Shown: positions 658-38,421 of the stretch, piece after piece
How the letters are laid out: each line of letters opens with the position of its first letter
How positions within the stretch are numbered: position 1 is the stretch's first letter
Assembly: GCA_030634465.1 (NCBI GenBank)
Contig: DAOWAS010000005.1
Coordinates: 1 to 39,272, forward strand
Length of the DNA stretch: 39,272 bases
Source of the DNA: Alphaproteobacteria bacterium
GTDB taxonomy: Bacteria > Pseudomonadota > Alphaproteobacteria > Sphingomonadales > SMXR01
Direction: 5' to 3'
Made by a program: the position numbers and the translations under genes
The notes under the pieces: generated by a model
Databases searched by the model: none
What the model saw: only the letters and a program-made list of their open reading frames with translations
What the model was told of the DNA's origin: nothing

Positions 658-679
658 ATATAACTGTCGGGGGACAGGT

Positions 680-1786: not shown

Positions 1787-2484
1787 AGGTGCTTTCAATT
1801 ATTCAACATACATCTGCTGAGTATCTAGGTCTTATGGAAGACCATTTAGAAGGTCGGCAAATTCGTTTTAAATATTACCGCCCATTTGTTGAGGGCAACC
1901 CCATGCCCGACCGTGATGCTTTCGGCGATGGTCTTATATTGCTGGGTGGCGGGCCGTGGGGTGCGGCGGGCAGCCGTGATATTCCCACTTTGGCAGAGGA
2001 AGTAGCAGTGACCAGAAGTTGCCTGATGCAGGGCAAGCCCATTATCGCCATTGGCTTGGGGGCAATAATTTTAGCCATTGCCGCAGGTGGTTCGGCAAAA
2101 CCAGCACCGCTAACCTTTAGCGTTGGCGAGGCCAGACGAATTAAGGACGATGCCCTAAACGGATATTTACCCGAAGTGTTCCCCCATGTTGTTTACATGA
2201 AAGACGCGCCAGTTTTACCAGATTATGCTGAAATTTTGGCGGTTGATGAGGCGGGTGAACCTGCGGTTTTTCAAATTGGCGAAAATGCATTTGGCTTTAT
2301 TGGTCACCCCGGAACCAAACCTGCAATTGCTGAAGACCTGTTTATGGAATTTGAAGAAATTCCTGAAAATTCTGCGGCAGTTCTCGATTCGTTAAACATC
2401 AAAAAGGTGGATATAGAGGACGCTTTAATACCCATAATGACAGGGCTTATTCAAAAGACAGGGCTTATGGGGCGGGGCAATTAA
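1783..2484 (+). CDS. Class I glutamine-amidotransferase-like protein lacking the nucleophile cysteine
   Basis: This 233-residue protein has the layout of a stand-alone class I glutamine amidotransferase domain. A LGGGPWGA segment lies at about 54-61, a nucleophile-elbow region at 86-97, and a terminal His-Pro motif at 175-176. The elbow reads AIGLGA where active enzymes have GICLGA, so position 91 is glycine instead of cysteine. The catalytic HPE motif reads HPG (175-177), so the glutamate is also gone. It is therefore unlikely to hydrolyse glutamine. Translation is coupled to the preceding ligase by an ATGA overlap, which ties it to lipoate assembly or attachment. The function is unknown; a scaffold or ligand-binding role is inference. 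It is followed by a 258-base gap before the DsrE gene. Confidence 0.8.
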   Translation: MKVLSIIQHTSAEYLGLMEDHLEGRQIRFKYYRPFVEGNPMPDRDAFGDGLILLGGGPWGAAGSRDIPTLAEEVAVTRSCLMQGKPIIAIGLGAIILAIAAGGSAKPAPLTFSVGEARRIKDDALNGYLPEVFPHVVYMKDAPVLPDYAEILAVDEAGEPAVFQIGENAFGFIGHPGTKPAIAEDLFMEFEEIPENSAAVLDSLNIKKVDIEDALIPIMTGLIQKTGLMGRGN

Positions 2485-2561
2485 GTGTCTGATATTGTTG
2501 CGTTAATGTGATTAAGTTGCATGTTTTTTAATTTTTTTGTTTCAATATGTCAATTATTACT

Positions 2562-2575
2562 TTAGATTATTCTAA
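2562..2575. promoter_or_regulatory. Inverted repeat upstream of the dsrE-sHdr operon
   Basis: TTAGA, four bases, then TCTAA form a perfect inverted repeat in the AT-rich gap before dsrE. A winged-helix ArsR/SqrR-type repressor encoded at 9968 could bind such a site, but that is inference. The repeat shares the 7-mer TAGATTA with the inverted repeat at 11315-11331. Confidence 0.35.
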
Positions 2576-2632
2576 TAAACAAAACTCACGTTCCTGTTTT
2601 ATTAAGTAGTACCAACGTTTTTTTAATATTTA

Positions 2633-2656
2633 CCTGAGATAATGTTTAGCCTCAGG
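2633..2656. repeat. Inverted repeat CCTGAG-N12-CTCAGG upstream of dsrE
   Basis: CCTGAG (2633-2638) and CTCAGG (2651-2656) are exact reverse complements separated by 12 bases. The right arm also lies within a short GCCTCAGGC palindrome (2650-2658). It sits about 90 bases before the dsrE start codon and could be a leader hairpin or an operator. There is no T-run after it, so it is not a typical terminator. Confidence 0.35.
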
Positions 2657-2742
2657 CTCATTTAAACGGCCTTAAAACAGGGTAGGGTTAGTAACAAAGA
2701 ATAAGAAATTTGAATAAATATAGGGAATTAAGGGGCTAATTT

Positions 2743-3120
2743 ATGTCAGACAAACTAATTATTGTTATTGCAAATACCGATCCAAGAAATGGCGAAGAAC
2801 TAGGCGCGCCGATTTTTCAGGCAACTGTTGCCGCCGCGATGGAATATGAGGTCGATGTTATTTTTACCGCCACAGCTGGCAAATTGATGAAAAAAGGCGT
2901 GGCTGAGAAGCTTTTTATTAAAGAAGGCTCTCCAAAATCAGTATATGAATTTATTAAAGATGCCCACGAAGCTGGCGCAAAAATGTACTGCTGTTCACCT
3001 AACCTAGACCTTTTCGACATGACTGTTGATGACCTGATACCAGAATGCGAAGGCGTTGTTGGTGGTGCGCATCTTATTGAAGAGATTATGGAAGAAGATT
3101 GTAAAGTTCTAACATACTAA
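2743..3120 (+). CDS. DsrE-family sulfurtransferase/sulfur carrier (DsrE3-like)
   Basis: This 125-residue cytoplasmic protein has the DsrE/F fold pattern: an IIVIANTDP first strand, a long helix, and a central VIFTATAG strand. The vicinal cysteines C83 and C84 in MYCCSPN occupy the place of the active-site cysteine of DsrE3-type carriers. C102 and C120 are additional. In sHdr organisms such proteins pass sulfane sulfur, together with TusA and rhodaneses, toward the sHdr complex. It is the first gene of the sHdr run, 43 bases before sHdrC1. A good ribosome-binding site (AAGGGG) lies seven bases before the ATG. No TusA, rhodanese or DsrE2 gene is visible in the window; these may lie upstream. 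The exact DsrE subclass is not certain. Confidence 0.82.
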   Translation: MSDKLIIVIANTDPRNGEELGAPIFQATVAAAMEYEVDVIFTATAGKLMKKGVAEKLFIKEGSPKSVYEFIKDAHEAGAKMYCCSPNLDLFDMTVDDLIPECEGVVGGAHLIEEIMEEDCKVLTY

Positions 3121-3163
3121 TCTTTAGCTTGACGGCTTAACAATAAAATTGAGGAAATGCCAA

Positions 3164-3919
3164 TTGTCACATTCTCATTCATCTAGAGTTCAAAAGCATA
3201 TCGGTGATCCGATCTCTGAAAAACCTGCGGTAGATCAGGAGTTTTTAGAGGAAATTTTCAATGACATTCAGTCAGATTTTCGTTTTGATCACGAATTAAA
3301 TGGTTGTTTAAATTGTGGAATTTGCACAGCCACTTGCCCTGCGGCGCATTATTACGACTTTAGCCCAAGGGAAATGGTTCAGCTTTTGTGGACAGAAAAC
3401 TTGGAAGGCATTTACGATGCCATGCAGGAAAAAATTTGGGCCTGCGCCCAGTGTTATACCTGTGCGGCACGTTGTCCGTTTAAAAACTCTCCTGGTGGCT
3501 TAATTATGTTGATGCGTGAAACAGCAATTAAGCACGGCATGGAGAGTGCCAAGAGCGTTTTACGCCCATTTAGCCGTGTTATGTTGAAGCTGATATCAAC
3601 AGGCAACCAGTTGGCACCTGACATGATTACCCCTGATCACTTTCCCGATTGGGGTCCAAATATTTCCAAGGTTGATGCCCCTCTGAAATTGTTGCGTAAG
3701 GCCATTCCAATGGCAACGCTAAACACCACCGCAACCGCATGGGAAGTAAACCTGAAAACATCTATCGAGCTATACACAATTTGGGAAGAGACAGGCGTTC
3801 TAGACCAGTTGGAAACAATTGATGAAAACTTGTTCGATGTGATTGTGGATATTATGGACGAAAAGCGCGAAGATTTAGAAGATTGGGAAGATGAGCAAGA
3901 AGACGAGAACGACGAATAG
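3164..3919 (+). CDS. hdrC1: sHdrC1, iron-sulfur subunit of the sulfur-oxidising Hdr-like complex
   Basis: This protein (251 residues from the chosen start) carries two [4Fe-4S] ferredoxin motifs, C48-x2-C51-x2-C54-x3-C58-P and C94-x2-C97-x2-C100-x3-C104-P. They are followed by a helical domain typical of HdrC subunits and a strongly acidic tail. It should move electrons between the FAD subunit sHdrA and sHdrB1. I chose the TTG at 3164 as start because GAGGAA lies eight bases before it. A TTG five codons upstream (3149) is also open but overlaps that ribosome-binding site. The gene order C1-B1-A-Hyp-C2-B2-LbpA that begins here is diagnostic of the sHdr system. A strong terminator hairpin overlaps its stop codon. 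Confidence 0.9.
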   Translation: MSHSHSSRVQKHIGDPISEKPAVDQEFLEEIFNDIQSDFRFDHELNGCLNCGICTATCPAAHYYDFSPREMVQLLWTENLEGIYDAMQEKIWACAQCYTCAARCPFKNSPGGLIMLMRETAIKHGMESAKSVLRPFSRVMLKLISTGNQLAPDMITPDHFPDWGPNISKVDAPLKLLRKAIPMATLNTTATAWEVNLKTSIELYTIWEETGVLDQLETIDENLFDVIVDIMDEKREDLEDWEDEQEDENDE

Positions 3920-3943
3920 GTCGCTCTCGTTTTTTTTATTTTT
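3903..3943 (+). terminator. Intrinsic terminator between sHdrC1 and sHdrB1
   Basis: Arms 3903-3913 and 3920-3930 form an 11-base-pair stem with one A-C mismatch and a six-base loop GAATAG. It is followed by eight T (3930-3937), one A and five more T. The loop contains the sHdrC1 stop codon TAG. This is a textbook rho-independent terminator in the middle of the operon. A ribosome finishing sHdrC1 would mask the stem, so read-through may depend on translation. Confidence 0.8.
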
Positions 3944-3960
3944 AAAGCTAGGAGAACATT

Positions 3961-5313
3961 ATGGCTGATAAACATGATGGAGATGAGCGCTTTACCGGAC
4001 ACGGTGCAGAATGGCGCGATAGCAATCTTTCACAGGAAGATGCACAGGTAGCAACCGCTTGGGTTGAGCAAAAAATTGACCGCAGGTCTATGCTTACCAA
4101 CAAGGACCGCGTTGAAGATGTGCGCGATATTATGTGGCAGTTGGAAAAAGACGGCGAAATTGTTGTTCACAGAATTAAAGATGAGCACAACCCTGTTGTC
4201 GTAAAGACCCTGTTTGGTTGGGATAAAAAAATCCCTACAAACCAGTTGTGGCACCATAAGTCATGCGGTCAGTGCGGTAACATTCCCGGCTATCCGACAT
4301 CATTGCTATGGCTGATGAACGAAATGGGTATTGAATATTTGGACGAAACTGACCAAACATCATGCACCGCGTGGAACTATCATGGTTCGGGCATTGGTAA
4401 CATGGTTTCATTGGCGGCGGTGTTTTTGCGCAATTTCCATCAGGCTTATATGTCTGCGAAAGCTATGGGCTTGCCAGAGGGGCATTTCTATCCGCTAGTT
4501 CATTGCGGGACATCTTTTGGTAACTATAAAGAAGTGCGGGGCTATTTGCTGCACTCTGCCGAGTTGCGCGAGCAAGTTAAGAACATTCTAGGCAAGCTTG
4601 GTCGTTTGGTTGACGGCAAGCTGCTTATACCTGAAGAGATTGTGCATTATTCGGAATGGGTACATGTGATGCGCGGCGAAATTGCCAAGCGTCAGGTTGT
4701 GGACACTAGTAAAATTCGTGCCACCATTCACCCTGCTTGTCATGTTTACAAAATGGTTCCTGAAGATGTTGTTTATGATAACGATGTGCTGGGTGGTAAC
4801 CGTGTTGCTGTGTCTACGGGCATTATGGAAGCGTTGGGCACTAACGTTATTGATTATTCAACATGGTATGACTGTTGTGGTTTTGGTTTCCGTCACATTA
4901 TTTCAGAGCGCGAATTTACCCGTTCTTACGCCATTGACAGAAAAATTAAAGTTGCTGTGGAAGAGGCCAATTCAGATATAATGATCGGCCATGATACTGG
5001 CTGTATTACCACGCTGGATAAAAACCAGTGGATTGGTAAAGCTGTGGGCAAAGACTATGAATTGCCCGTTATGGCTGATTGTCAGTTTGCGGCTTTGGTT
5101 TGCGGTGCTGACCCATTTAAAATTGTGCAATTGCATTGGCATGCCTCGCCAGTTGAAAAGCTGTTGGCAAAACTTGGCATTGACTGGGACGAGAAAAAGG
5201 CAGGGTTTGAGGCTTATTTAAAAGAAGTTGAAGCTGGTAATCAGGAAAATTTGTATGACCCGCGTAAGCGTATTACGTCAGGTCCAGGATATAAAAGGAT
5301 TGAACAAAAATGA
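3961..5313 (+). CDS. hdrB1: sHdrB1, cysteine-rich subunit of the sulfur-oxidising Hdr-like complex
   Basis: This 450-residue protein resembles HdrB (heterodisulfide reductase subunit B family). After an N-terminal region of about 95 residues without cysteine motifs, it shows SCGQCG (101-106), DQTSC (131-135), VHCGTS, HPACHVYK, DCCGFGF and DTGC. These are the cysteine-rich CCG-type segments that ligate unusual iron-sulfur clusters in this family. In the sHdr complex it is thought to be part of the substrate-converting centre. The start ATG at 3961 follows AGGAGAA. The end overlaps sHdrA by ATGA. It is transcribed downstream of an intrinsic terminator, so its dose may differ from that of sHdrC1. 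Confidence 0.9.
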   Translation: MADKHDGDERFTGHGAEWRDSNLSQEDAQVATAWVEQKIDRRSMLTNKDRVEDVRDIMWQLEKDGEIVVHRIKDEHNPVVVKTLFGWDKKIPTNQLWHHKSCGQCGNIPGYPTSLLWLMNEMGIEYLDETDQTSCTAWNYHGSGIGNMVSLAAVFLRNFHQAYMSAKAMGLPEGHFYPLVHCGTSFGNYKEVRGYLLHSAELREQVKNILGKLGRLVDGKLLIPEEIVHYSEWVHVMRGEIAKRQVVDTSKIRATIHPACHVYKMVPEDVVYDNDVLGGNRVAVSTGIMEALGTNVIDYSTWYDCCGFGFRHIISEREFTRSYAIDRKIKVAVEEANSDIMIGHDTGCITTLDKNQWIGKAVGKDYELPVMADCQFAALVCGADPFKIVQLHWHASPVEKLLAKLGIDWDEKKAGFEAYLKEVEAGNQENLYDPRKRITSGPGYKRIEQK

Positions 5314-6347
5314 CAAAACCTATCCTAGTAGTTGGTGGCGGCCCCGCAGGTTTGGCGGCAGCACATTCACTATCAGCACTTGGCAAAAAGGTCGTGCTGG
5401 TTGAAAAGGAAGATAAGCTGGGTGGCGCACCTATTTTGTCTGGCTATGCAAAACTGGTTCCCTCTGGTGAGTGGGCCAAAGACGCTATTGGCGGCATGGT
5501 CAAACGGGTTGAAGACAGCAAGATGATTGATGTGCGTTTAAGCACAACGGTTAGCGAGTTGTCTGGCGACACTGGCAATTTTACCGCCAAGCTTTCATCG
5601 GGTGATGAGGTAAACGCAGCAGCCACGGTTATGTGTACAGGCTTTACCCATTTTGACAGTGTTAATAAGCCAGAATGGGGCTTTGGAACACATCAAGATG
5701 TTGTGACAACCACACAGGTTGAACAAATGATTTCATCTGGCAAGGGTGTTCGTTGCCCGTCGGATGACCGTAAGCCAAAGCGCGTTGCTATTTTGCTTTG
5801 CGTTGGTTCTCGTGACCGTCAAATTGGTCGTGAATGGTGTTCGAAAATTTGTTGTTCAGTTTCAGCAAATATCGCTATGGAAATTCGCGAAGAATTGCCA
5901 GATTGTCATGTGTATATTTATTATATGGACATTCGTACCTTTGGTCTTTTGGAAACTAAATATTACTGGAAAAGCCAAGAAGAATTTAAGGTTAAATACA
6001 TCAAGGCGCGTATTGCCGAGGTTACATCAAATGGTGAACAGTTGATTGTTAAGGGTGAAGATACGCTGGTTAAGCGTCCTATCACCATTCCGTTCGACAT
6101 GGTTGTTCACGCTGTGGGCATGGACCCTAATGTTGATAACCGTGTTTTATCTGAAAGCTTTGATGTTGATCTTGAACCACACGGCTTTATTGATCGCGCT
6201 GATAGCTACGGTGTTGTTGGTGCCACATCACGTGATGGCGTGTTTGTAGCGGGTTCTGCCACAGGGCCAGAAACCATTGACGACAGTATTGCCCAAGGTA
6301 AAGCCGCGGCAATGTCAGCGCTTGAATGTATTCAGGCTACAAAATAG
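5310..6347 (+). CDS. hdrA: sHdrA, FAD-binding subunit of the sulfur-oxidising Hdr-like complex
   Basis: This 345-residue flavoprotein starts with a Rossmann dinucleotide motif, VVGGGPAG (7-14), followed by LVEKEDKLGG. The cluster-ligand region contains C164 in CVGSRD and C177, C181 and C182 in WCSKICC. The C-terminus has the GVFVAGSATGP FAD motif. It is much shorter than methanogen HdrA and lacks the C-terminal ferredoxin domain, as expected for sHdrA of bacterial sulfur oxidisers. It likely bridges electron transfer between the C and B subunits and may be the site of electron bifurcation or transfer. Translation is coupled to sHdrB1 by a four-base overlap. Confidence 0.92.
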   Translation: MTKPILVVGGGPAGLAAAHSLSALGKKVVLVEKEDKLGGAPILSGYAKLVPSGEWAKDAIGGMVKRVEDSKMIDVRLSTTVSELSGDTGNFTAKLSSGDEVNAAATVMCTGFTHFDSVNKPEWGFGTHQDVVTTTQVEQMISSGKGVRCPSDDRKPKRVAILLCVGSRDRQIGREWCSKICCSVSANIAMEIREELPDCHVYIYYMDIRTFGLLETKYYWKSQEEFKVKYIKARIAEVTSNGEQLIVKGEDTLVKRPITIPFDMVVHAVGMDPNVDNRVLSESFDVDLEPHGFIDRADSYGVVGATSRDGVFVAGSATGPETIDDSIAQGKAAAMSALECIQATK

Positions 6348-6361
6348 GAAACACAAACTAA

Positions 6362-7249
6362 ATGGCGTCATTAGGCAGCATATTTGGAGGTAAGGGCAAA
6401 AGCCCTGTGCAGGAGGCCACCTTGGAACGTCCAAGGTTGGAGCTGTCTGGCCCCACATTGACCAGTGCCTTTGAAACCCTAACCACCATAAGTGAAGAGC
6501 ATGGCGGCATTGAAAAATATGTTGATGCTCTGAAACTGAAGTCTGAGCTGTTCAAAGAAGTGTTTGAAAAAGGTGCTGACACCCCGCTTGAGCCTGCCAT
6601 TATGAAGGGCATTTCGTTGGTTATGCCAACAGTGCGCCGGCGTATCGGCATTTATTTGGATGATGGTGAGAAGTTTGAAGTGTTGCGTAGTGCCATTTCT
6701 GGCCTGTTAGATGGCATGGATAATACCCGCACCACTGATGCTCGCATGGCGGCATTTTGTGCCTGTTTTCCTGAGGACAAAGCCCATCGCTGGGTGAAAG
6801 ACCTTGGTTCTGAAATTTTGCACAACACTGATCTGGAGCGTTACCCACAAATGAACCGTTGGATGTGGGATAAAACTTCAAACACTGGAATGTTACGTGA
6901 AATTTGGTACGACGATAACATCGACCATATTACTTTGGATATTCCTGATGGCTACGGCACATTTATTATGTTGCGTGAAGAAATAGCGCAATTTTTAAGT
7001 GGCAACGGAATTTATAAAGACATGTTCTATTATATTGATCTGCTGTTTGCTCAGGTTTACAGCGATTATATTACAGCACAGGGTGGCACATATTTGCGGG
7101 CGGATTTTTCCACCCCAGATGACCCAATGGAACACACCCGCAGGCTTTTGGGATTAGATGTGGTTCGCTATAAAAACCACCCAAATGCAGAAGACGCAGA
7201 TGAAGAGCAAACAGTTACTTTAATAGACACTAAACTTTTGATGAGTTGA
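6362..7249 (+). CDS. Conserved sHdr-locus protein (Hyp)
   Basis: This is a 295-residue soluble protein with no domain I recognise. Its position between sHdrA and sHdrC2 is that of the hypothetical gene found in sHdr loci of sulfur oxidisers. It is mostly helical in composition, has no signal peptide or membrane segment, and shows only one notable cysteine pair (C133 and C135 in AFCACF). Spacing is 14 bases after sHdrA and 7 before sHdrC2, so it is in the operon. It may be a structural or assembly partner of the complex, but nothing in the sequence proves this. Confidence 0.88.
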   Translation: MASLGSIFGGKGKSPVQEATLERPRLELSGPTLTSAFETLTTISEEHGGIEKYVDALKLKSELFKEVFEKGADTPLEPAIMKGISLVMPTVRRRIGIYLDDGEKFEVLRSAISGLLDGMDNTRTTDARMAAFCACFPEDKAHRWVKDLGSEILHNTDLERYPQMNRWMWDKTSNTGMLREIWYDDNIDHITLDIPDGYGTFIMLREEIAQFLSGNGIYKDMFYYIDLLFAQVYSDYITAQGGTYLRADFSTPDDPMEHTRRLLGLDVVRYKNHPNAEDADEEQTVTLIDTKLLMS

Positions 7250-7256
7250 TAAAATT

Positions 7257-8036
7257 ATGCCTATTCATGAAAAATCGCTGATCCGCCCAGAAAATCTAGT
7301 TACCCATGACCAGTTGGTTATTGATGGTGTTGATGTTTCTGGTCACTGGAGCACCTTTATCGAAACAAGGGTGGTGAAGGACTATAATGAAGACATGCAA
7401 GATGAAATTGCAGCCCTAGCAGGTGGTGAAAATATTCACCGTTGCTGGCAGTGTGGCTCTTGTACCAATGCCTGCACGATCAATGCGGAAAACCCTGATT
7501 TTAATCCGCGTTATTGGATTTATCTAATACGCATGGGTATGGAAAGCGAACTTTTGCGCGATAAAGATATTATTTGGCAATGTGTTTCTTGTAATAAATG
7601 CACCTCGGCCTGCCCGCGTGATGTGGTGCCAGAAGGCGTTATGAAAGCTACAGCCCACTGGTTGGAGCTAAAAGGTCACACAGAAAAGTCATCATCCACA
7701 ATTTTTGACGAAGTGTTTTCAGAACAGGTTTTTGCCACTGGTAAAATTGAAGAAAGCAGAACCATGCGCCGCTTTTTCAGCCGCACTGGTCAGCCATTAA
7801 TGCCAAGTTGGTTTGTTGAGTTTATGAAAAGGCTTATCCGTTATTTGCCAGTAAAAATGCTTATGCACATGGGATTAGCCACTGTATTTACTCCCAAAAC
7901 CAAAAAATGGGATAAGGCCAGAGATGCTATTGAGGAATATGTAGCTGAGAAAAAAGCTGCTGACAGAAAAGCCCTTGGTTTAGATAAATTAATAGAACAA
8001 GCGAAGCAGGAAGTTAACAACATTGCTGCTGAATAG
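7257..8036 (+). CDS. hdrC2: sHdrC2, second iron-sulfur subunit of the sulfur-oxidising Hdr-like complex
   Basis: This 259-residue protein has two [4Fe-4S] motifs: C63-x2-C66-x2-C69-x3-C73 (CWQCGSCTNAC) and C109-x2-C112-x2-C115-x3-C119-P (CVSCNKCTSACP). The second cluster is followed by an HdrC-like helical domain. It is paired with sHdrB2, which starts 14 bases later, as the second C-B module of the complex. The C-terminal 40 residues are lysine- and glutamate-rich. The internal four-helix region around 185-215 is hydrophobic but not a convincing membrane span. Confidence 0.9.
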   Translation: MPIHEKSLIRPENLVTHDQLVIDGVDVSGHWSTFIETRVVKDYNEDMQDEIAALAGGENIHRCWQCGSCTNACTINAENPDFNPRYWIYLIRMGMESELLRDKDIIWQCVSCNKCTSACPRDVVPEGVMKATAHWLELKGHTEKSSSTIFDEVFSEQVFATGKIEESRTMRRFFSRTGQPLMPSWFVEFMKRLIRYLPVKMLMHMGLATVFTPKTKKWDKARDAIEEYVAEKKAADRKALGLDKLIEQAKQEVNNIAAE

Positions 8037-8050
8037 GAGACTTCGCCGTT

Positions 8051-8983
8051 ATGGATAATAAAGATAAATATAAAAAGGTAGCTTACTATCCAGGTTGTGC
8101 GCTGGAGGGAACCGCGCACGCCTATGACAGTTCAACAAGAGAAGTTGGCAAGGCATTGGGTTTGGAGTTGGAAGAGGTTGAAAACTGGAACTGTTGCGGT
8201 GCAATGGAAGTTAAAAACGTAGACACCAAGTTGCAAACATATCTGTCTTCACGGGTGCTATCTATTGCCGCTAATGAAATGAAGCACGATGTGGTGATGG
8301 CGCCATGTAACGGTTGTTATCATAATTTGAAAAAAGCCGAGTATGACCTTGCTGAGGATGATGCATCGGTTGAGGTGGTGGAAAAGCTGTCTACAAAGGC
8401 TGGTCACGAAACGTACAAAGCAGGACAAATAGAAACTATTCATGCGCTGGACTGGATTAAAAAAGCTGTTGGCGAAGAAGAGTTAGAGAAAAAAATCGAG
8501 AACTCGTTACAAGGTCTGAAAGTAGCTAACTATTATGGTTGCATGTACACCCGCCCAAGGCATATTTTCCCTGAAAAAGACCAAGGTGAGGGAAGTGAGA
8601 GCATTGATAAGCCCCATTATATGGATGATCTTTTAGCTGTAGCTGGTGCTGAGAATGTTGAGTTCCCACTAAAAACAGCGTGTTGTGGCGGTGCGCACAC
8701 ACTATCTGATAGCGATATGTCCACCAAGCTGGTGTTGAACATTTTGCAAGCGGCTGAGGCATCAGGTGCTGAGGTAATAGCAACCGAATGCCCAACTTGC
8801 CACAGTGGTTTGGAAATGCACCAAGTGAGAGCCGAAAAAGAACTTGGCATTAAAACCAATGTTAAAATTATGTATTTTACGCAGTTGCTAGGCGTTGCTT
8901 TAGGTATGAGCAAAAGAAAAGTAAGCATTCATGAAAATGTTTCTGACGGCTCCAAGCTACTTAAAGAAAAGGGTATTGGGTGA
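8051..8983 (+). CDS. hdrB2: sHdrB2, second CCG-domain subunit of the sulfur-oxidising Hdr-like complex
   Basis: This 310-residue protein has two canonical CCG domains. The first comprises YYPGC, NWNCCGA and APCNGCYHNL. The second comprises YYGCMYTRP, TACCGGAH and TECPTCHSG. This pattern binds the noncubane iron-sulfur clusters that handle disulfide or sulfur chemistry in HdrB. It follows sHdrC2 closely after a GGAG site. Its stop overlaps the start of the next gene by four bases (GTGA), linking that small gene to the complex. Confidence 0.92.
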   Translation: MDNKDKYKKVAYYPGCALEGTAHAYDSSTREVGKALGLELEEVENWNCCGAMEVKNVDTKLQTYLSSRVLSIAANEMKHDVVMAPCNGCYHNLKKAEYDLAEDDASVEVVEKLSTKAGHETYKAGQIETIHALDWIKKAVGEEELEKKIENSLQGLKVANYYGCMYTRPRHIFPEKDQGEGSESIDKPHYMDDLLAVAGAENVEFPLKTACCGGAHTLSDSDMSTKLVLNILQAAEASGAEVIATECPTCHSGLEMHQVRAEKELGIKTNVKIMYFTQLLGVALGMSKRKVSIHENVSDGSKLLKEKGIG

Positions 8984-9396
8984 GAAGCTTCGAAGATATA
9001 GAGCAGGCAATTGATGCTGCACAGAAGTCTGAAGAACCAATAAGTTCTGCTAAAGTCCTGCTTGAGGCAGGAGAAGATGTGATGGAACAATGGGTTAGTG
9101 CGCATGATGGTGAGCCAACCCAAAAAGAAAAAGAAGGCTTCAGACTGTTAGCCCTGCACCGCCAAGGGGCAAAGGGTGAACCAAGTTTTAACGCTTGTCG
9201 TGAAACTTGCCGAGAGCTTGTCTATTATTATAATCTTATTACATTAGATAAAAGCCATGAAGATGTTGCCAAACGGGTAGTTATGATGGCATTAGTAGCT
9301 AAACACCTGCTATATTTTGTTAGTGGGAAGATGATCGAGAATGAGTTGGGCGGCTTTTGCTGCGCTTCCAAGCCACTACGTGCCAATATGAATTAG
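8980..9396 (+). CDS. Uncharacterised 138-residue protein coupled to sHdrB2
   Basis: I do not recognise this protein. It begins at a GTG overlapping the sHdrB2 stop (GTGA), so translation is coupled. It lies between sHdrB2 and lbpA. The sequence is soluble and helical and has two cysteine pairs: C73 and C77 in NACRETC, and vicinal C127 and C128 in GGFCCAS near the C-terminus. Those cysteines could carry sulfur or bind metal, but that is inference from composition and location. The central VVMMALVAKHLLYFVSG stretch is hydrophobic, though too short to assert a membrane anchor. Confidence 0.82.
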   Translation: MRSFEDIEQAIDAAQKSEEPISSAKVLLEAGEDVMEQWVSAHDGEPTQKEKEGFRLLALHRQGAKGEPSFNACRETCRELVYYYNLITLDKSHEDVAKRVVMMALVAKHLLYFVSGKMIENELGGFCCASKPLRANMN

Positions 9397-9423
9397 CTGC
9401 GTGGCGACAAGAATTATAAGTAA

Positions 9424-9446
9424 AAATTAACATTGCTAGTTAATTT
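9424..9446. promoter_or_regulatory. Perfect 8-base inverted repeat upstream of lbpA
   Basis: AAATTAAC (9424-9431) and GTTAATTT (9439-9446) are exact reverse complements with a seven-base spacer. The element sits 27 bases before the lbpA ATG and fills most of the gap after the previous gene. It could be an operator, a transcript-processing site or an mRNA-stabilising hairpin that sets a separate level for LbpA. Confidence 0.4.
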
Positions 9447-9473
9447 AAGAAGAAAACAAAGAGGGTCAAAATT

Positions 9474-9917
9474 ATGACAGATGTTCGCGGGTGCCACTTA
9501 CCAGATGAGTTGCTTTATGATGTTGCAAACCATATTTGGTTTACCGAAGTTGGCGATGGCACGGTTAAGCTTGGCATGACCACAGTTGCAACAGCACTAG
9601 CTGGGCAATTGGTAGCATTTACACCAAAAAAGGTGGGACGTTCTGTTAAGCCTGGCAAGTCATGCGGCACAGTAGAAAGTGGCAAGTGGGTTGGCCCTGC
9701 CAAATCTGCGGCTGGTGGCGAAGTGTTGGAAGTTAATACCGCCCTTGTTGATAAGCCTGATATGGCAAATGATGACCCTTACGGCGATGGCTGGATGGTA
9801 ATTCTTAAGCCAGATGATTGGGATAGTGTTAAGCCTACGCTGACACCAGGTACGGAAGTTACCGCACCTTACGAAGCAAAAATGGATGAAGACGGCTTTG
9901 CTGGATGTGGCGGCTGA
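9474..9917 (+). CDS. lbpA: Lipoate-binding protein LbpA (GcvH-like) of the sHdr pathway
   Basis: This 147-residue protein has the biotinyl/lipoyl-domain fold of glycine cleavage H protein. K71 in ESGKWVGP is the expected lipoylation site. The flanks differ from GcvH (GWMVILKPDDWD, then a C-terminal GFAGCGG with C145), and no glycine-cleavage genes are present. Placed at the end of the sHdr genes and with dedicated ligase and radical SAM genes upstream, it fits LbpA, whose swinging lipoyl arm carries sulfur substrate during oxidation by sHdr. A ribosome-binding site (AGAGGG) precedes the ATG. Confidence 0.93.
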   Translation: MTDVRGCHLPDELLYDVANHIWFTEVGDGTVKLGMTTVATALAGQLVAFTPKKVGRSVKPGKSCGTVESGKWVGPAKSAAGGEVLEVNTALVDKPDMANDDPYGDGWMVILKPDDWDSVKPTLTPGTEVTAPYEAKMDEDGFAGCGG

Positions 9918-9928
9918 TAAGAGGTTTG

Positions 9929-9944
9929 AGGTCTGGATAGACCT
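9929..9944. repeat. Hairpin between lbpA and the ArsR-type regulator gene
   Basis: AGGTCT, loop GGAT, AGACCT gives a six-base-pair perfect stem extended by two G-T pairs. There is no T-run, so it is at most a partial terminator or RNA stability element, or else an operator for the regulator that starts 24 bases later. Confidence 0.35.
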
Positions 9945-9967
9945 TGTGAATATGTGTTTGGGGAATA

Positions 9968-10321
9968 ATGATGAGTGATGTAGCTGAAGCCATGCCAATG
10001 GAAATGGATATTGACGCGTTGAAGGCCAATGCAAAAAATGCAACTGGTCTTTTGAAAACCATGGCTAACGAATGGCGTTTGCTAATACTTTGCCAATTGG
10101 CAGAGGGCGAGAAAAGTGTTGGTATTTTAGAAGACCTTATCGGTCTTTCACAATCTGCTTTGTCACAGCATCTGGCAATTTTACGCAGAGAAAATTTGGT
10201 TAAAACCAGACGCTCTGCCCAAAGCATTTATTATTCTCTGTCTAGCAATGAAGCCGAAGCTGTAATGGCAACGCTGTATTCTCTTTTTTGCGACCCTGAA
10301 ACCTGCGGGTCAGGCAGATAA
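9968..10321 (+). CDS. ArsR-family repressor, SqrR/BigR/sHdrR-like persulfide sensor
   Basis: This 117-residue winged-helix protein has the recognition helix SQSALSQHLAILRRENLV (about 61-78) and the following wing TRRSAQSIYYSL. It lacks the usual metal motif of ArsR/SmtB. It has C42 in LILCQL and C108 in LFCDPE, the two positions that form the sulfur-sensing pair in SqrR, BigR and YgaV, plus an extra C113. Such proteins derepress sulfide- or thiosulfate-oxidation genes when the cysteines become bridged by sulfane sulfur. In sHdr organisms, ArsR-type regulators control sHdr and Sox genes. The start is ATG at 9968 or, equally possible, ATG at 9971. The target sites are not known; candidate inverted repeats are listed separately. 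Confidence 0.88.
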   Translation: MMSDVAEAMPMEMDIDALKANAKNATGLLKTMANEWRLLILCQLAEGEKSVGILEDLIGLSQSALSQHLAILRRENLVKTRRSAQSIYYSLSSNEAEAVMATLYSLFCDPETCGSGR

Positions 10322-10327
10322 TATTTG

Positions 10328-10687
10328 CTACAGGCAGTGAAGAAGAACTTTGCGGCGTAGCTGGTTGAAGTTTTGCCAAGATGAAAACACAGACTCTTTG
10401 TCTTCTGTTCCAGTTTGATGCTCGAAAAAGATATTAATAAATGCCTCTAAGGGTTCTTTCAGCTCAAACGTTCTGAGGTCGCCTTTTGTCCAGCCAATTA
10501 CCATTCCTGCCTTTTTAAATTCATCTAGGTTTGAGGCTGTTTTTATAAGCGCAACCAGTTTTTCCAGACGTGCAATATCTTCACGAAGAAGCTGGCTTTC
10601 AAACATACTGTCCTGAACTTCGAGCTTTTGTTTAAGGTGAGTGATAAGAAACAATTTTAAAATCCTTGAAAAAGTTTCATTAGCCAT
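10328..10687 (-). CDS. Uncharacterised 119-residue protein
   Basis: I do not recognise this protein. It is helical, with a middle segment rich in charged residues (LLREDIARLEKLVALIK) that could form a coiled coil, and it has no signal peptide. It converges on the regulator gene with a six-base gap and diverges from the DUF442 gene. No clear ribosome-binding site precedes the ATG at 10687, and the start codon lies inside an inverted repeat (10679-10694). It may be a real orphan gene; I give it moderate weight because the frame fills the gap exactly and no other frame codes there. Confidence 0.55.
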   Translation of the reverse strand: MANETFSRILKLFLITHLKQKLEVQDSMFESQLLREDIARLEKLVALIKTASNLDEFKKAGMVIGWTKGDLRTFELKEPLEAFINIFFEHQTGTEDKESVFSSWQNFNQLRRKVLLHCL

Positions 10688-10694
10688 TGCTAAT
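10679..10694. promoter_or_regulatory. Inverted repeat over the start of the 119-residue gene
   Basis: ATTAGC, CATT, GCTAAT is a perfect inverted repeat covering the start codon of the minus-strand gene. It lies in the divergent region shared with the DUF442 gene. It could occlude the start codon in mRNA or act as an operator. Confidence 0.3.
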
Positions 10695-10768
10695 ATGATT
10701 AAACATACTATCTATATAGCTTCAAGAGATTAAATAAGCACTACTGTTCTAAAAATTAGGAGGCGGAA

Positions 10769-11194
10769 ATGACCAATATAGCACAAATTACCGATAACTA
10801 TTCAGTTGCCCCTCAGCTTACTGCGGCTGACTTTGCCACCATTGCGGAGGCTGGATATAAAACTGTTATAAATTTTCGTCCTGATGCAGAAAAGCCGGGC
10901 TATATGAGTGCTAGTGAAGCCCAAAAGCTGGCAGAAGAAAAAGGCTTGGCTTATTACCATATTCCAGTGCCCATGAACGGCCTTACAGCTGAGCATATTA
11001 AGGGTTTGAAAGATATTATCGCCCAAACCAATGATCCAATTTTAGCCCACTGTGGAACTGGCAAAAGAGCTTCTGTGGTATGGGCCTTTGCCCATGCTAG
11101 CGAAGGTGACATAGATAATATTGTGTCGTGTTGTGCCAAGGCTGGGCATAATATTGCTCCGTTACGCCCTCAACTACAGGGAATGAAGGGCTAG
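10769..11194 (+). CDS. DUF442 (TIGR01244) phosphatase-like protein, Blh N-terminal type
   Basis: This 141-residue protein belongs to the DUF442 family, which has a tyrosine-phosphatase-like fold. The P-loop is HCGTGKRAS, with C95 as the nucleophile and R100 as the loop arginine. The N-terminus has ITDNYSVAPQLTAADF and VINFRPDAE, typical of the family. DUF442 is the N-terminal domain of Blh, which is encoded with BigR in sulfide-detoxification operons. Here it stands alone near an SqrR-like repressor. It may therefore act on persulfides or be a small phosphatase; the substrate is not known. A strong AGGAGG site precedes the ATG. Confidence 0.88.
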   Translation: MTNIAQITDNYSVAPQLTAADFATIAEAGYKTVINFRPDAEKPGYMSASEAQKLAEEKGLAYYHIPVPMNGLTAEHIKGLKDIIAQTNDPILAHCGTGKRASVVWAFAHASEGDIDNIVSCCAKAGHNIAPLRPQLQGMKG

Positions 11195-11344: not shown

Positions 11345-13120
11345 GTGGAAAAACCAGTGGGCATAAGAGCAAGAGTTGCTCTTTTAATGACAATGTTTAC
11401 GGTGGTGGCGGCTGTTTCCATGGCTGGTGTTGTCTACTTCTTGTATACCTCAGCCTTGGATGTTGAAAAAGACCACCTTTCAAAAATTGTCGACAGGCAG
11501 GCGGTTATTCTTAATGCCATTAGCGACCAAAACAGCCACGATAGTGTGGTAGCCAGTATAATTTCACCACAAGGTGGAGCGTATGGTTATGGGGGCTTTG
11601 CCGACACTGGCGAGGTGGTCGTAGGCAAAAGATCAGAAGACACAATTCTATATTATTGGTCAGAAAAACAATCAGACCAAAGCACATTAGATAATAGATT
11701 AAGCAGGGTTGTTCCTTGGCAATCTGGTTTGGCAGAACCGTTGCGCCGCGCACTTAACGGCGAGCAAGGAACCATGCTAGGCAATGACTATATGGGGCGC
11801 ACCGTTATTGCCGCTTATGCCCCTACAGCGGGCGGTGTTTGGGGTGTTGTTGCAAAATTAAATCTGGCAGAGGTTCAAAAACCATTTTTCCATGCTGGTC
11901 TGATAGTGGTTGGCAGCATAGTTGCCATTATGCTTTTGGGTTATTTATTGTTTAGAGCTTTATCCCATCCTTTTGTCGAGCGCACTAAGGTTGAAAAAGA
12001 GCTTATCGATAGTAAAAAGCAAATGGAGTTTGTTTTAGATAATACCGCAGATGGAATTATTTCCATGGCGGCAGACGGAACCATTTTAACCTTTAACCGT
12101 GCCGCAGAAAAAATGTTCCGATATTCCTCTGATGAGGTTTTGGGTAAAAACATTGCCGTTTTAATGACAGGCTTTGATGCTGACCGTCATGGTGGCTATG
12201 TAGAAGGCTACATGGAAACACGTTCCAAAAAAATTATTGGTATCGGCCCGCGTGAGGTAAATGGTGTTCGTAAAGATGGCTCTCTTATTCCTATTGACCT
12301 TGCTGTTAACGAAATTAAAGGCGTGGATAAGACTATTTTTGTGGGAAGTGTTCGTGATATTTCAGAACGTATTGTGCAAAGAAAACGCATTCAACGTTCA
12401 CAAAAAATAGAGGCCATTGGTCAGTTGACCAGGGGCGTTGCCACAGATTTCAATAATATCCTTATTAACATTCAGGAAAATTTGGATTTGCTTGAGGGTA
12501 AGCACGGCAGAGACAGCCAGTCGCTTGAATATATTCAAAGTGCGAATAAAGCGTCAAAACACGGTGTTGAAATGATCCAAAGGCTTTTGGCCTTCTCAAG
12601 GCGTCAGCAGTTAACGCCTGAGTCTATAAACATTAAAGATGTTATTACCGACACAGTTAAGCTGGCAGAGCCATCACTTGGCCCCAAAATAGAAGTTAAT
12701 CTGGATGTGTCCCGCGATTTGTGGAGCATTGTGGCTGATAAGGGGCAGTTGGAAAATACCTTGCTAAGTTTATGCCTGAACTCAAGAGACGCCATGCCTA
12801 GTGGTGGAGTTTTATCCATAAAGGCAGAAAACCTAATGCTAAATAAAGAAGATGCGGACAAAAAGTCAGTTATGCCCGGTGAGTATATTCGCCTGTGCGT
12901 GAATGATAACGGTATTGGTATGACCGAGGGTATCGTGGATAAGGTTTTTCAACCATTTTTCACCACAAAGGATTTTGGCAAAGGCTCTGGTCTGGGTTTA
13001 AGTATTATTCATAGTTTCGTTCATCAAACTGGTGGCACGATTGCTTTGCACAGTGAGGTTGATAAAGGTACAGAAGTTGAGATATTGCTTCCAAGACACG
13101 GACAGGTATCCCTAACCTAA
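11345..13120 (+). CDS. Orphan membrane PAS sensor histidine kinase lacking the phosphoacceptor histidine
   Basis: This 591-residue protein has a membrane segment at about 12-34, a periplasmic sensor region of about 145 residues, a second membrane segment at about 184-206, and a PAS domain at about 222-338 (FVLDNTADGIISM...FVGSVRDIS). A HisKA-like dimerisation helix follows at about 350-420. The HATPase domain has the N-box LCLNSRDAMPSGG, G1 box NDNGIGM, F-box FQPFFTT and G2 box GKGSGLGLS. In the H-box, family members read GVAHDFNN, but this protein reads GVATDFNN, so T367 replaces the phosphorylated histidine. The ATP site looks intact. No response regulator is adjacent and there is no receiver domain. 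It may act as a partner or pseudokinase. The start is a GTG at 11345 after AGGG. Confidence 0.88.
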   Translation: MEKPVGIRARVALLMTMFTVVAAVSMAGVVYFLYTSALDVEKDHLSKIVDRQAVILNAISDQNSHDSVVASIISPQGGAYGYGGFADTGEVVVGKRSEDTILYYWSEKQSDQSTLDNRLSRVVPWQSGLAEPLRRALNGEQGTMLGNDYMGRTVIAAYAPTAGGVWGVVAKLNLAEVQKPFFHAGLIVVGSIVAIMLLGYLLFRALSHPFVERTKVEKELIDSKKQMEFVLDNTADGIISMAADGTILTFNRAAEKMFRYSSDEVLGKNIAVLMTGFDADRHGGYVEGYMETRSKKIIGIGPREVNGVRKDGSLIPIDLAVNEIKGVDKTIFVGSVRDISERIVQRKRIQRSQKIEAIGQLTRGVATDFNNILINIQENLDLLEGKHGRDSQSLEYIQSANKASKHGVEMIQRLLAFSRRQQLTPESINIKDVITDTVKLAEPSLGPKIEVNLDVSRDLWSIVADKGQLENTLLSLCLNSRDAMPSGGVLSIKAENLMLNKEDADKKSVMPGEYIRLCVNDNGIGMTEGIVDKVFQPFFTTKDFGKGSGLGLSIIHSFVHQTGGTIALHSEVDKGTEVEILLPRHGQVSLT

Positions 13121-13208
13121 TAATTCATACAACCGAACACTTTCATATAAAATTACCTTGAACTTAGCTCAATGCTTTGAAACACTGTCTTTTCAAGAAG
13201 GTGGGGAT

Positions 13209-14348
13209 ATGTCTCAAGAAGAAAATGCATTAGTGGTTAAAGAAGACCCAGCTCTACTGGAAATTGATTTCCATGGAGACATGCTTATCGGCCGTGCCGC
13301 TGAGATTGAAGCCCAGCTTAAGAAATTCCAAGGCAAAAAACACAGATCCGCTATGGCTATTGTTGACCTGTCCAAGGTTACAAGTGCCGATACCGTTGGT
13401 GCATGGCTTATATATAAAACGGTTAAAGATATAAAAAAATATGTAGCAAAGGTTCATGTTCGTGGTGCTAGCCCAGATGTTGAAAGTCTTTTGCTGCAAA
13501 TTGAAGAAAATGACCAGCCGTTTGTGCCGCCGCCACCTCGCTTAAACGCAGTGTTAACCCAGTTGGAAGATGTTGGTCTGGCTACGGTAAGAATTGTTAC
13601 TGAAATGGGCAAGTTCTTGGGTTTTATGGGCTTGGTAACCACAAGGCTTGCTGGTGCATTTAAAGACCCAAAAAGAATTCGTATTGTGCCTCTGGTTTAT
13701 CAGATGGAGCATGTGGGTCTAAAAGCACTTTCTATAATTGGTTTGATGTCGTTTCTAATTGGCGCGGTTATTGTAAACCAAGGGGCTATTCAGCTTAGGC
13801 AATTTGGCGCTGAGGTTTTTGTTGTTGATATGCTGGCTATAACCCAGTTGCGTGAGCTAGGGGTGCTGTTAACCGCCATTATGGTCGCAGGGCGTTCAGG
13901 CAGTGCCTTTACCGCACAAATTGGCAGTATGCGTGCCAACGAAGAAATAGAGGCCATAGAAACCATTGGCATGCACCCCATTGATGTATTGGTAATTCCA
14001 CGGCTATTGGCACTGGTTTTAGTTCTGCCCATACTGGTGTTTTATGCTGATATCATGGGTTTGTTGGGCGGCGCGCTAACCGCATGGATAACCCTAGATA
14101 TTTCACCGGGTGCATTTGTGCAAAGGTTTCAGGAAGCGGTTGTGGTCAGCACCTTTATGGTTGGTCTTATTAAAGCGCCATTTTTTGCCGCTGTAATAGC
14201 GCTTAGCGGGTGTTTTGAAGGCATGAGCGTTTCAGGCAGTGCCGAAAGTGTGGGGCGGCACACAACCAGATCAGTGGTGCAGTCAATTTTCTTGGTGATA
14301 GTGTTAGATGCATTTTTTGCTATGTTTTTTACAGCATTGGATTGGTAG
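13209..14348 (+). CDS. mlaE: MlaE-type lipid ABC transporter permease with N-terminal STAS domain
   Basis: The first about 105 residues resemble a STAS domain (FHGDMLIGRAAEIE and VDLSKVTSADTVGAWLIY), like MlaB fused to the permease. The rest is an MlaE permease with LVYQMEHVGLKALSIIG, GSAFTAQIGSMRANEEIEA and about five hydrophobic segments. It belongs to the inner-membrane complex that moves phospholipids between the inner and outer membranes. I chose the ATG at 13209, preceded by AAGGTGGGG, giving 379 residues; a longer frame opens at 13158 but lacks such a site. The permease, ATPase, MCE and lipoprotein genes follow each other in order. Confidence 0.93.
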   Translation: MSQEENALVVKEDPALLEIDFHGDMLIGRAAEIEAQLKKFQGKKHRSAMAIVDLSKVTSADTVGAWLIYKTVKDIKKYVAKVHVRGASPDVESLLLQIEENDQPFVPPPPRLNAVLTQLEDVGLATVRIVTEMGKFLGFMGLVTTRLAGAFKDPKRIRIVPLVYQMEHVGLKALSIIGLMSFLIGAVIVNQGAIQLRQFGAEVFVVDMLAITQLRELGVLLTAIMVAGRSGSAFTAQIGSMRANEEIEAIETIGMHPIDVLVIPRLLALVLVLPILVFYADIMGLLGGALTAWITLDISPGAFVQRFQEAVVVSTFMVGLIKAPFFAAVIALSGCFEGMSVSGSAESVGRHTTRSVVQSIFLVIVLDAFFAMFFTALDW

Positions 14349-15146
14349 TTGGTGGAAAAAAGCAAAATTGATAATAGCGACAAAGACGATAACCCTGTTG
14401 TTGAGGTTAGGGGGTTGGTCACACGCTTTGGCATGAACACAGTGCATGACAATTTAGATATTAAAATGCGCAGAGGTGAAATTCTCGGCGTTGTTGGCGG
14501 CTCTGGCACTGGCAAGTCAGTTTTATTGAAAGCCATTTTGGGAATAATTAAACCCGCCGCAGGTAAAATTGATATTTGGGGGCAAGATCAGGCTGAGTTA
14601 AGTTCTAATGAGCTTATTTGCGAGAGAAGGCGGCTTGGTGTTTTGTTTCAGGATGGTGCGCTGTTTTCGTCATTAAGTGTTGCGGGTAACGTTCAGGTGC
14701 CCCTGCGGGAACATTTCAATATGTCACAACAGTTAATGGATGAAATATCTGCCATTAAAATTAGCATGGCGGGTTTGCCGCCTGATGCCGCACCTAAAAT
14801 ACCCGCTAGTTTGTCTGGCGGTATGCGTAAGCGTGCTGGCTTGGCGCGGGCACTTGCACTTGACCCGCAAATATTATTTTTGGACGAACCCACAGCAGGG
14901 CTAGACCCAATTGGCGCGGCAGCGTTTGACCAGCTTATTTTAAAATTGCGTGATACATTGGACTTGTCTGTGTTTCTTGTAACCCACGATTTAGATACAT
15001 TATACACTATTTGTGATAGGGTTGCGGTGCTGGCTGAGGGTAAGGTAATAGCGACCAAACCAGTCCACGAGTTAGAGAAGTTAGACCATAGTTGGGTTAA
15101 AGAATATTTTCGTGGCCCAAGGTCACGCCTTGCAAAAGAGGGTTGA
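14349..15146 (+). CDS. mlaF: MlaF-type ABC transporter ATP-binding protein
   Basis: This 265-residue ATPase has Walker A GGSGTGKSV (50-58), the signature LSGGMRKRAG and Walker B ILFLDEPTAGLD, followed by a VTHDLDT H-loop. It powers the lipid transporter. The gene begins directly at the mlaE stop. The start is TTG at 14349 or GTG at 14352, both without spacing from mlaE, so translation is probably coupled. The signature LSGGMRKR is characteristic of Mkl/MlaF-type importers rather than drug exporters. Confidence 0.94.
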   Translation: MVEKSKIDNSDKDDNPVVEVRGLVTRFGMNTVHDNLDIKMRRGEILGVVGGSGTGKSVLLKAILGIIKPAAGKIDIWGQDQAELSSNELICERRRLGVLFQDGALFSSLSVAGNVQVPLREHFNMSQQLMDEISAIKISMAGLPPDAAPKIPASLSGGMRKRAGLARALALDPQILFLDEPTAGLDPIGAAAFDQLILKLRDTLDLSVFLVTHDLDTLYTICDRVAVLAEGKVIATKPVHELEKLDHSWVKEYFRGPRSRLAKEG

Positions 15147-15211
15147 TGCTATTTTAATACTAGTTATGAACCAAGGCTCAGTTACAAAATAAGGCAAAGA
15201 GGCATAAATTT

Positions 15212-16144
15212 ATGGAAACAAGAGCACATCATTTGCTGATCGGGGCATTTATGGTTGTCATGGTCGCTAGCTTTTTAGGGTTTCTTATTTGGCTGGCCAA
15301 AATTGATATTGACCAAGAGTTTGGTGAATATGACATTTATTTTGATGAGAGCGTTGCCGGTCTGACAAAATCTAGCGTTGTTCAATATAACGGCATTCCC
15401 GTGGGTCAGGTTTGGGATATTCGCATTGACCCCAACAACCCTAACAGGGTTCTGGTTAAGGTGGAAATTGAAAGTGATATCGATATTTATGAAGATAGTG
15501 TTGCAGTGCTTGCAATGCAGGGTATTACTGGTGTGGCCTTTGTTCAAATTGAGGGCGGCAGTGCTGAAGCGGCAATTTTACAAGCTGATGGTGACGTAGC
15601 TCCCATTATAAAATCACGCATTTCAGCAATTCAGGAACTGTTCACTGGCGCGCCAGACTTTATTAACGAAGCAATTGGCGTGGTTAATAAAATTAATGAA
15701 CTATTGAACGAAGAAAACCGTGCCAGCATTGGCAATATTTTACGAAATATGGACGATGTTTCACAAAACTTCGCTGAGGGAACTGAAGACATTGCCGCAG
15801 TGGTGACAGAACTAAACAGGTCCATAAAAAGCGTAGGTGATGCGGCTGAGGCTATTGCTGAGGTTGCCACGGGTATTGAGGGCGAGTTGGAAGATGTTCT
15901 TAACGAGCTTGATGGTGTTTTAAGCGGTGCTAACAAGCTGATGGAGCAACTTAACGATTTGGTTTATGAAAATGAGGGTGCTGTAACCACATTTACCAAT
16001 GGCACTTTACCAGAGATATCTAGACTGGTTATCGATGCTAGACGCTTGGCTATTGTGCTTTCAAGCTTGGCGGAAAATTTGGAAGATGACCCCACAGGTC
16101 TGATCTTTAGTCCAAGTAAACCAGAATACTCGCCTGAGAAATAG
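15212..16144 (+). CDS. mlaD: MlaD-type MCE-domain periplasmic lipid-binding protein
   Basis: This 310-residue protein has one N-terminal membrane anchor (about 8-28) and an MCE domain (about 40-125) with DIYFDESVAGLTKSSVVQYNGIPVGQV. A long coiled-coil C-terminal region follows, with repeated asparagine- and aspartate-rich heptads. In the Mla complex a hexamer forms the lipid-conducting ring. The C-terminal helix is much longer than in E. coli MlaD, as is common in alphaproteobacteria. The start is at 15212 after AAGAGG, 65 bases after mlaF. Confidence 0.93.
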   Translation: METRAHHLLIGAFMVVMVASFLGFLIWLAKIDIDQEFGEYDIYFDESVAGLTKSSVVQYNGIPVGQVWDIRIDPNNPNRVLVKVEIESDIDIYEDSVAVLAMQGITGVAFVQIEGGSAEAAILQADGDVAPIIKSRISAIQELFTGAPDFINEAIGVVNKINELLNEENRASIGNILRNMDDVSQNFAEGTEDIAAVVTELNRSIKSVGDAAEAIAEVATGIEGELEDVLNELDGVLSGANKLMEQLNDLVYENEGAVTTFTNGTLPEISRLVIDARRLAIVLSSLAENLEDDPTGLIFSPSKPEYSPEK

Positions 16145-16185
16145 GGCGAGAGCGACCTAATATAACGACACAGAAAGGCGGATTA

Positions 16186-16833
16186 ATGAGTAAACATATT
16201 GGCATAAAAAAAATAGTAGCAGTTTTACTATTACCAATGTTGGTGGCATGCGGCCCGTTGATAGAGTTTCCTGGCTCTGGCGATGCCCCGCGCCATTTTC
16301 AGCTAACCCCTAGCGGTGTGTCCCTAGCAAACAGTGCAACTGCTAATGTCAGTAGCGCAACCATTTATATGGAAAGTGTTTCATCGTCTGGTGTTCTTAA
16401 AACCACAAATATTCTGGTGCAGGCTGGTTCAAATGAACTGCAATATTATAAAGATGCCCTGTGGGTGGACAGAACCCCCATATTGGTTGAGCGTTTTCTT
16501 ATTGAGGCGCTAGCAAGCAATGGCAGCCTGACCGTTGTGGGTCCTGAAAGTATTGAAATACCTGCCGACTATAGGCTGAGAATTGACCTAAAGGGCTTTT
16601 CTTTTAAAACTGGGCAAATAGGAAGCTCTGACAAAGTATATATTAGCCTAACGGCAATGTTGGTTAAAAACGGCCCCATAGAAATTATGGGTCTTAAAGA
16701 ATTTAATATTGAACGTAATGTATCTAGTGGTGAGATTGATGAAGTGATTGAGGGTTTTAATATAGCTATGAATGGCTTGAGCCAAGATCTGTCAGGCTGG
16801 ATATATGAAACCTTGGAAAACGAAGCATCATAG
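16186..16833 (+). CDS. ABC-type transport auxiliary lipoprotein (PqiC/DUF330-like)
   Basis: A lipoprotein signal peptide ends in LVAC, so the mature protein begins at C22. The mature part has the strand pattern of the ABC_trans_aux family: SSATIYMESVSSSGVLKTTNILVQ and a long segment ending in LSQDLSGWIYETLEN. These proteins sit at the outer membrane and dock the MCE bridge. It follows mlaD by 41 bases after an AAAGGCGG site. A short inverted repeat spans the mlaD stop (CTCGCC and GGCGAG). Confidence 0.88.
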   Translation: MSKHIGIKKIVAVLLLPMLVACGPLIEFPGSGDAPRHFQLTPSGVSLANSATANVSSATIYMESVSSSGVLKTTNILVQAGSNELQYYKDALWVDRTPILVERFLIEALASNGSLTVVGPESIEIPADYRLRIDLKGFSFKTGQIGSSDKVYISLTAMLVKNGPIEIMGLKEFNIERNVSSGEIDEVIEGFNIAMNGLSQDLSGWIYETLENEAS

Positions 16834-35613: not shown

Positions 35614-35630
35614 TTTAAGTATTCTCTCTA

Positions 35631-36029
35631 TTAACTTTGATCTGCTGATAAAGCTACGTTTGGCGCTCCAGCCTGTCTGGCCGCTTCCATAACCTGCATT
35701 GTAATTCCAGATTTAGCTTCCCTGTCGGCCTGAATAACAACAGTACCTCTTGGGTTTTCAGCTAATAGTCTTTCCAAAACAGTTCTTAGTGCTTTAATTT
35801 CAACTTTTTTACGATTGACCCATACCTGGTCAGCGGAAGTTACTGCGATTAGAACGGCCGCTTGTTGTTTCAACTCTGCTGATACCGCAATTGGTTTATC
35901 AACTGAAACGCCAGCCTCTTTAACAAATACCGCGGTAACAATGAAGAAGATTAACATGATGAACACAATATCCAACATGGGTGTCATGTTAATTTCTTCT
36001 GCTTCATCGGCTTGTGCGTGGTTGCGCAT
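35631..36029 (-). CDS. exbD: ExbD-family biopolymer transport protein (second copy)
   Basis: This 132-residue protein has one membrane segment with the conserved proton-pathway aspartate D20 in MTPMLDIVFIMLIFFIV and a periplasmic domain ending in MQVMEAARQAGAPNVALSAD. It works with ExbB to power TonB. A second ExbD lies immediately upstream, 67 bases before this one. Confidence 0.92.
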   Translation of the reverse strand: MRNHAQADEAEEINMTPMLDIVFIMLIFFIVTAVFVKEAGVSVDKPIAVSAELKQQAAVLIAVTSADQVWVNRKKVEIKALRTVLERLLAENPRGTVVIQADREAKSGITMQVMEAARQAGAPNVALSADQS

Positions 36030-36096
36030 AACTTTTCTCTTCTATTGTTATATCATGAAAATAGTAAAAAAACTATTTCCTGCATTAATCCAATGG

Positions 36097-36492: not shown

Positions 36493-36499
36493 AACCGAC

Positions 36500-38417: not shown

Positions 38418-38421
38418 TTTC

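Follow-up and report, generated by a model that had tools for sequence, protein, structure and literature searches.

A predicted histidine kinase with threonine at the phosphoacceptor position is a candidate reader or phosphatase of a response regulator in an alphaproteobacterium

An open reading frame in the window (the whole 39,272-nt stretch of DNA analyzed here) encodes a predicted sensor histidine kinase in which threonine (T367) occupies the position of the phosphoacceptor histidine, as the original prediction had claimed. As judged from its sequence, the protein is confirmed as real and membrane-bound, a rare His-less kinase whose general type is already known. We infer that it could not run a normal kinase cycle; it is probably no longer a kinase but a protein that binds, and perhaps dephosphorylates, the partner protein of another kinase. 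The reading we prefer, to which we give an even chance, is a repurposed pseudo-histidine kinase that serves as nucleotide-gated reader or phosphatase of a distant response regulator. The features on which this reading draws are listed in Table 1.

Table 1. Predicted domains and core residues of the window kinase
Feature	Position in the window	Strand	Basis and remarks
Pseudo-histidine kinase ORF	11345..13120	+	591 aa, GTG start
First transmembrane segment, about residues 9-38	11369..11458	+	Hydropathy
Extracytoplasmic sensor domain, residues 39-178 (140 residues)	11459..11878	+	No Pfam match
Second transmembrane segment, about residues 179-211	11879..11977	+	Hydropathy
PAS domain, residues 226-341	12020..12367	+	PF00989/PF13426
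DHp/HisKA helices, residues 340-418	12362..12598	+	Pfam HisKA match below cut-off; structure model
R363 (AGG)	12431..12433	+	Alignment; relatives G 82, A 5, S 4, R 1
T367 (ACA) at phosphoacceptor His position	12443..12445	+	Sequence and alignment
D368, kinase-type acidic residue, kept	12446..12448	+	Alignment; role from PMC3510030
N371, phosphatase-type T/N residue, kept	12455..12457	+	Alignment; role from PMC3510030
E378 (GAA)	12476..12478	+	Alignment; relatives G in 89/93
CA/HATPase_c domain, residues 426-583	12620..13093	+	PF02518; structure model
S475 (AGT) for first N-box Asn	12767..12769	+	Alignment; N in 91/93
N479, second N-box Asn, kept	12779..12781	+	Alignment; 93/93
G1 box DNGIG (521-525), kept	12905..12919	+	Alignment
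F box FQPFFTTK (535-542), kept	12947..12970	+	Sequence and alignment
G2 box GSGLGL (547-552), kept	12983..13000	+	Alignment

The H-box of the window kinase reads QLTRGVATDFNNIL, T367 included. The DHp-CA core was aligned with 93 nonredundant relatives from its own genome and its order, plus one gammaproteobacterial kinase, and the equivalent position is H in 92 of them, the remaining row (L134, a partial fragment) being gapped. The phosphoacceptor His that functional HisKA domains carry in the DHp H-box is therefore replaced by T367. Its codon, ACA, differs from both His codons (CAT and CAC) at all three bases, which excludes a single-base error as the cause; deriving it from a His codon takes either three substitutions or two compensating indels. 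A sequencing or assembly error masking a true His is most improbable. The genome is indeed a draft of 160 contigs, and two compensating single-base indels beside CC could turn CAC/CAT into ACA, but the three differing bases fall within a single codon and leave the frame unbroken, and the same gene carries independent unusual residues at positions 363, 378, and 475.

Motif scans revealed how rare this substitution is. The G-x-A-T-D-F-N-N pattern matched only the window in 385 genomes of the class, and the window plus a 34-codon frame (G1007), discarded as a chance match, in 399 genomes of the phylum. When any acceptor codon not starting with C was allowed, the 61 nearest genomes and 301 genomes of the order returned the window together with frames rejected as nonkinases: a TonB-dependent receptor (G052), an outer-membrane-type protein (G550), and two copies of a 122-codon frame (G588 and G618). 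Combined, the scans covered 1,024 genomes (G000 to G1023) and found T at this motif in no other kinase, a result that bounds this motif rather than all His-less kinases, since the pattern requires exact flanking residues and misses C-initial codons. The H version of the motif is matched 124 times in 58 of the 61 relatives (summed from the table of matches).

The changes in the catalytic core extend beyond the acceptor. The window protein is unchanged at 20 of the 23 columns that are at least 95% conserved and departs from them at H367T, G378E, and N475S. This count is not extreme, as more distant kinases in the alignment differ at up to six columns; the departures of the window protein include the catalytic acceptor and one ATP-site residue. 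The N, G1, F, and G2 boxes had all been described as intact, which holds for the last three but not for the N box: the HATPase_c domain preserves G1, F, and G2 together with N479, whereas the near-invariant first N-box Asn, also N in CckA, KinB, and ZraS, is S475. Further kept residues are N370, D521, G523, G525, G547, G549, and G551. The T/N residue expected four positions past the acceptor in HisKA phosphatases is present as N371 (N in 89 and T in 3 of the 93 relatives). G363R and G378E are located on the same helix as the acceptor and could impair docking. With the acceptor lost and N475S and two DHp glycines changed too, the earlier suggestion of a pseudokinase is well supported.

Because of S475, options requiring an active kinase domain are less probable than regulator binding or phosphatase action, for which N371 remains in place. 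One such option is a heterodimer in which the CA domain would bind ATP and phosphorylate the His of a paralogous kinase, thereby passing on its own signal. We consider this quite unlikely: histidine kinase dimerization is usually specific, no partner kinase is encoded near the window kinase, the core is at most 44% identical to any paralog, and the N-box Asn is replaced. In its favor, G1, F, G2, and N479 are kept, the genome yields at least 20 paralogous kinase matches, some of them 41 to 44% identical over the core, and the paralogous kinases ChrS and HrrS are reported to heterodimerize (PMC9491836). Another option, for which we see very little chance, takes T367 itself as the phosphoacceptor of a Thr-autophosphorylating kinase, the phosphate perhaps not being passed on. 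Thr does carry a hydroxyl, and D368 remains along with most of the ATP site, but Asp would not be expected to receive phosphate from a phosphothreonine ester, and the kinase site is weakened by S475. Moreover, DivL, with Tyr550 at this position, has no autonomous autokinase activity, not even as Y550H (PMC4211667).

The frame of the gene is open throughout the 591 codons from a GTG start, and its GC and GC3 are in line with those of neighboring genes; scans for promoters and terminators gave nothing clear. Pfam assigned HATPase_c (PF02518; 1.1e-17) and PAS (1.8e-12) to the 591-aa protein, and HisKA at 22.4 bits, slightly under the curated cut-off of 26.9. The CA domain was modeled confidently in the full-length structure model (mean pLDDT, 85.0), in which the pTM of 0.43 renders the relative placement of the domains unreliable. 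Predicted secondary structure suggests that the sensor domain is single-Cache-like. The kept columns (20 of 23), the intact frame, the neighbor-like GC3, and the confident CA model support a repurposed core.

These same traits weigh against a recent loss of function, in which a former kinase of this lineage would be turning into a pseudogene and have no current role, an alternative that we regard as unlikely though not negligible. A full-length search of 60 relatives, none of them from the genus, which this genome alone represents, returned no ortholog (best identities of about 41 to 43%, core only). Weak relatives of the sensor domain alone were found by searching 385 class genomes, in 7 other genomes and at about 30 to 39% identity (best, about 38 to 39% with partial coverage), and a genome-contig search retrieved one gammaproteobacterial kinase, 29% identical. 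The lack of an ortholog or syntenic copy among the genomes compared, the several altered conserved residues, and a long terminal branch, eighth of 94 by rank, would all fit decay; the placement of the kinase in that tree is weakly supported (0.61) and was not used for conclusions. However, the frame is intact and of normal composition, and the His-to-Thr codon took three base changes, hence no very fresh single mutation.

The genomic context offers no partner. As had been stated, no response regulator adjoins the gene: none of the proteins scanned in the window matches Response_reg, in or beside the kinase. Upstream lie a sulfur-oxidation cluster of the sHdr-LbpA type (13-10321), which includes lipoate-assembly genes and a regulator of the ArsR type, and, between this cluster and the kinase, a DUF442/BLH-type phosphatase gene (10769-11194); downstream is an mlaE-mlaF-mlaD-auxiliary lipoprotein set (13158-16833). 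The sulfur-regulator and DUF442 neighborhood originally noted is thus real, but a functional tie to it is unsupported: five other sHdr clusters in the order conserve the cluster genes at about 45 to 86% identity and lack any kinase in the stretch read. An old kinase-mla operon was rejected as well, since no such kinase lies upstream of mlaE at 14 other loci in relatives (the L098 locus shows just a 22% partial match about 3 kb off). The kinase occupies a junction private to one draft genome, and the context therefore gives a sulfur-sensing role no support.

Several features of the surrounding region are recorded here for their own sake. The sulfur cluster comprises genes for a radical SAM protein (lipS-like) and a lipoate ligase (sLpl(AB)-like), dsrE, hdrC1-B1-A, orf6362, hdrC2-B2, lbpA, and the ArsR-type regulator. 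The orf6362 marker is missing in the 7 other family genomes compared, while 6 of 301 genomes of the order carry it, its own included; the sHdr cluster may therefore be laterally acquired. At sHdr clusters of two other genomes (L115, 6238-6987; L116, 12801-15707; compare 9968-11194 in the window), a DUF442/BLH-type phosphatase homologue occurs close to an ArsR-type regulator, hinting at a conserved sHdr-cluster accessory. A small protein with no Pfam match (10328-10687, minus strand) has homologues of 34 to 39% identity at the same place next to three other sHdr clusters. Finally, a TonB-type energy-coupling set (TonB-ExbD-ExbD-ExbB-ExbB-DUF3450; 35014-39237, minus strand) lies beside a TPR protein.

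How a repurposed pseudo-histidine kinase might act can be outlined from these features. The sensor and PAS domains would determine which conformation the DHp-CA core adopts, and this core may still dock a response regulator that has received its phosphate from one of the many paralogous kinases. Candidate partners exist, as 64 receiver-domain matches occur elsewhere in the genome. With N371 and most of the nucleotide site kept, the docked regulator could be clamped, and its phosphate would then be removed or the phosphorylated regulator held, as in a phosphatase-only protein or a DivL-style reader, respectively. The window protein would thereby act on another two-component pathway, as a brake or relay gated by its signal. 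A narrower version is more tentative, and we hold it only as a possibility: a stand-alone sensor derived from a CckA-like kinase that lost its kinase arm at H367T and N475S, kept the phosphatase residue, and may now be a dedicated, membrane-signal-gated phosphatase or reader of another kinase's regulator. The phosphatase activities of HK853 and EnvZ are stimulated by ADP (PMC7005713), and such stimulation provides a reason for keeping a nucleotide pocket without an acceptor. On the other hand, the acceptor His promotes the phosphatase activity of HisKA proteins (PMC7005713, PMC3510030), and T367 may therefore weaken it; in CrdS, H371A reduced this activity but did not abolish it (PMC3510030). 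N371 favors a phosphatase, whereas the loss of His and the precedent of DivL, which has no phosphatase activity, favor a mere reader.

To our knowledge, studies of bacterial histidine kinases that naturally lack the His are few and concern DivL in particular. If our reading is correct, the window protein would be a second, independent case of the alphaproteobacterial type, CckA-like, in which Thr takes the place of Tyr and the phosphatase residue is preserved, and would provide a test from nature of whether evolution can separate kinase from phosphatase function in HisKA proteins. The case comprises one gene from one genome, with candidate partners only, and it illustrates that the automatic label "sensor histidine kinase" can mislead on activity.

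Among known systems, the closest solved sequence is the alphaproteobacterial hybrid histidine kinase CckA (PDB 5idj; E value of 1e-39 over the DHp-CA core), with 35% identity in the fold match and the same G-x-A-x-DFNN motif class. Unlike CckA, which carries both the His and a receiver, the window protein has T367, S475, and an extracytoplasmic sensor but no receiver; it reaches 236 and 179 bits where the CckA cut-offs are 1000 and, with no His and no Response_reg match, falls outside that family. The best NCBIfam match, the PRK13557-type histidine kinases (NF010076), extends over PAS-DHp-CA, but its 240.5 bits are far under the 631-bit cut-off and do not confer membership. Solved NifL was also among the fold matches, and a NifL-type anti-activator role was considered but is not argued here. 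The ChrS pseudokinase variant of Corynebacterium glutamicum is catalytically dead and still modulates a paralogous two-component pathway (PMC9491836); that variant arose in the laboratory through a CA-domain frameshift and retains its His, while the window protein is natural and has none. A parallel in logic is the Caulobacter pseudo-histidine kinase DivL (Tyr550; PDB 4q20), which likewise combines a HisKA-type core lacking the acceptor His with largely kept boxes and, as an alphaproteobacterial protein, with PAS input (PMC4211667). The two differ in the acceptor-site residue (Tyr in DivL, Ala in its Magnetospirillum counterpart, Thr here), and DivL has multiple PAS domains and is conserved across alphaproteobacteria, whereas the window gene is known from one genome. 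DivL is only a distant relative by sequence (E value of 8.8e-6), and the much closer match to CckA makes the window protein DivL-like in logic, not in descent. DivL has neither kinase nor phosphatase activity and reads the phosphorylated regulator DivK, a precedent for the use of a His-less kinase as a response-regulator reader in alphaproteobacteria (PMC4211667).
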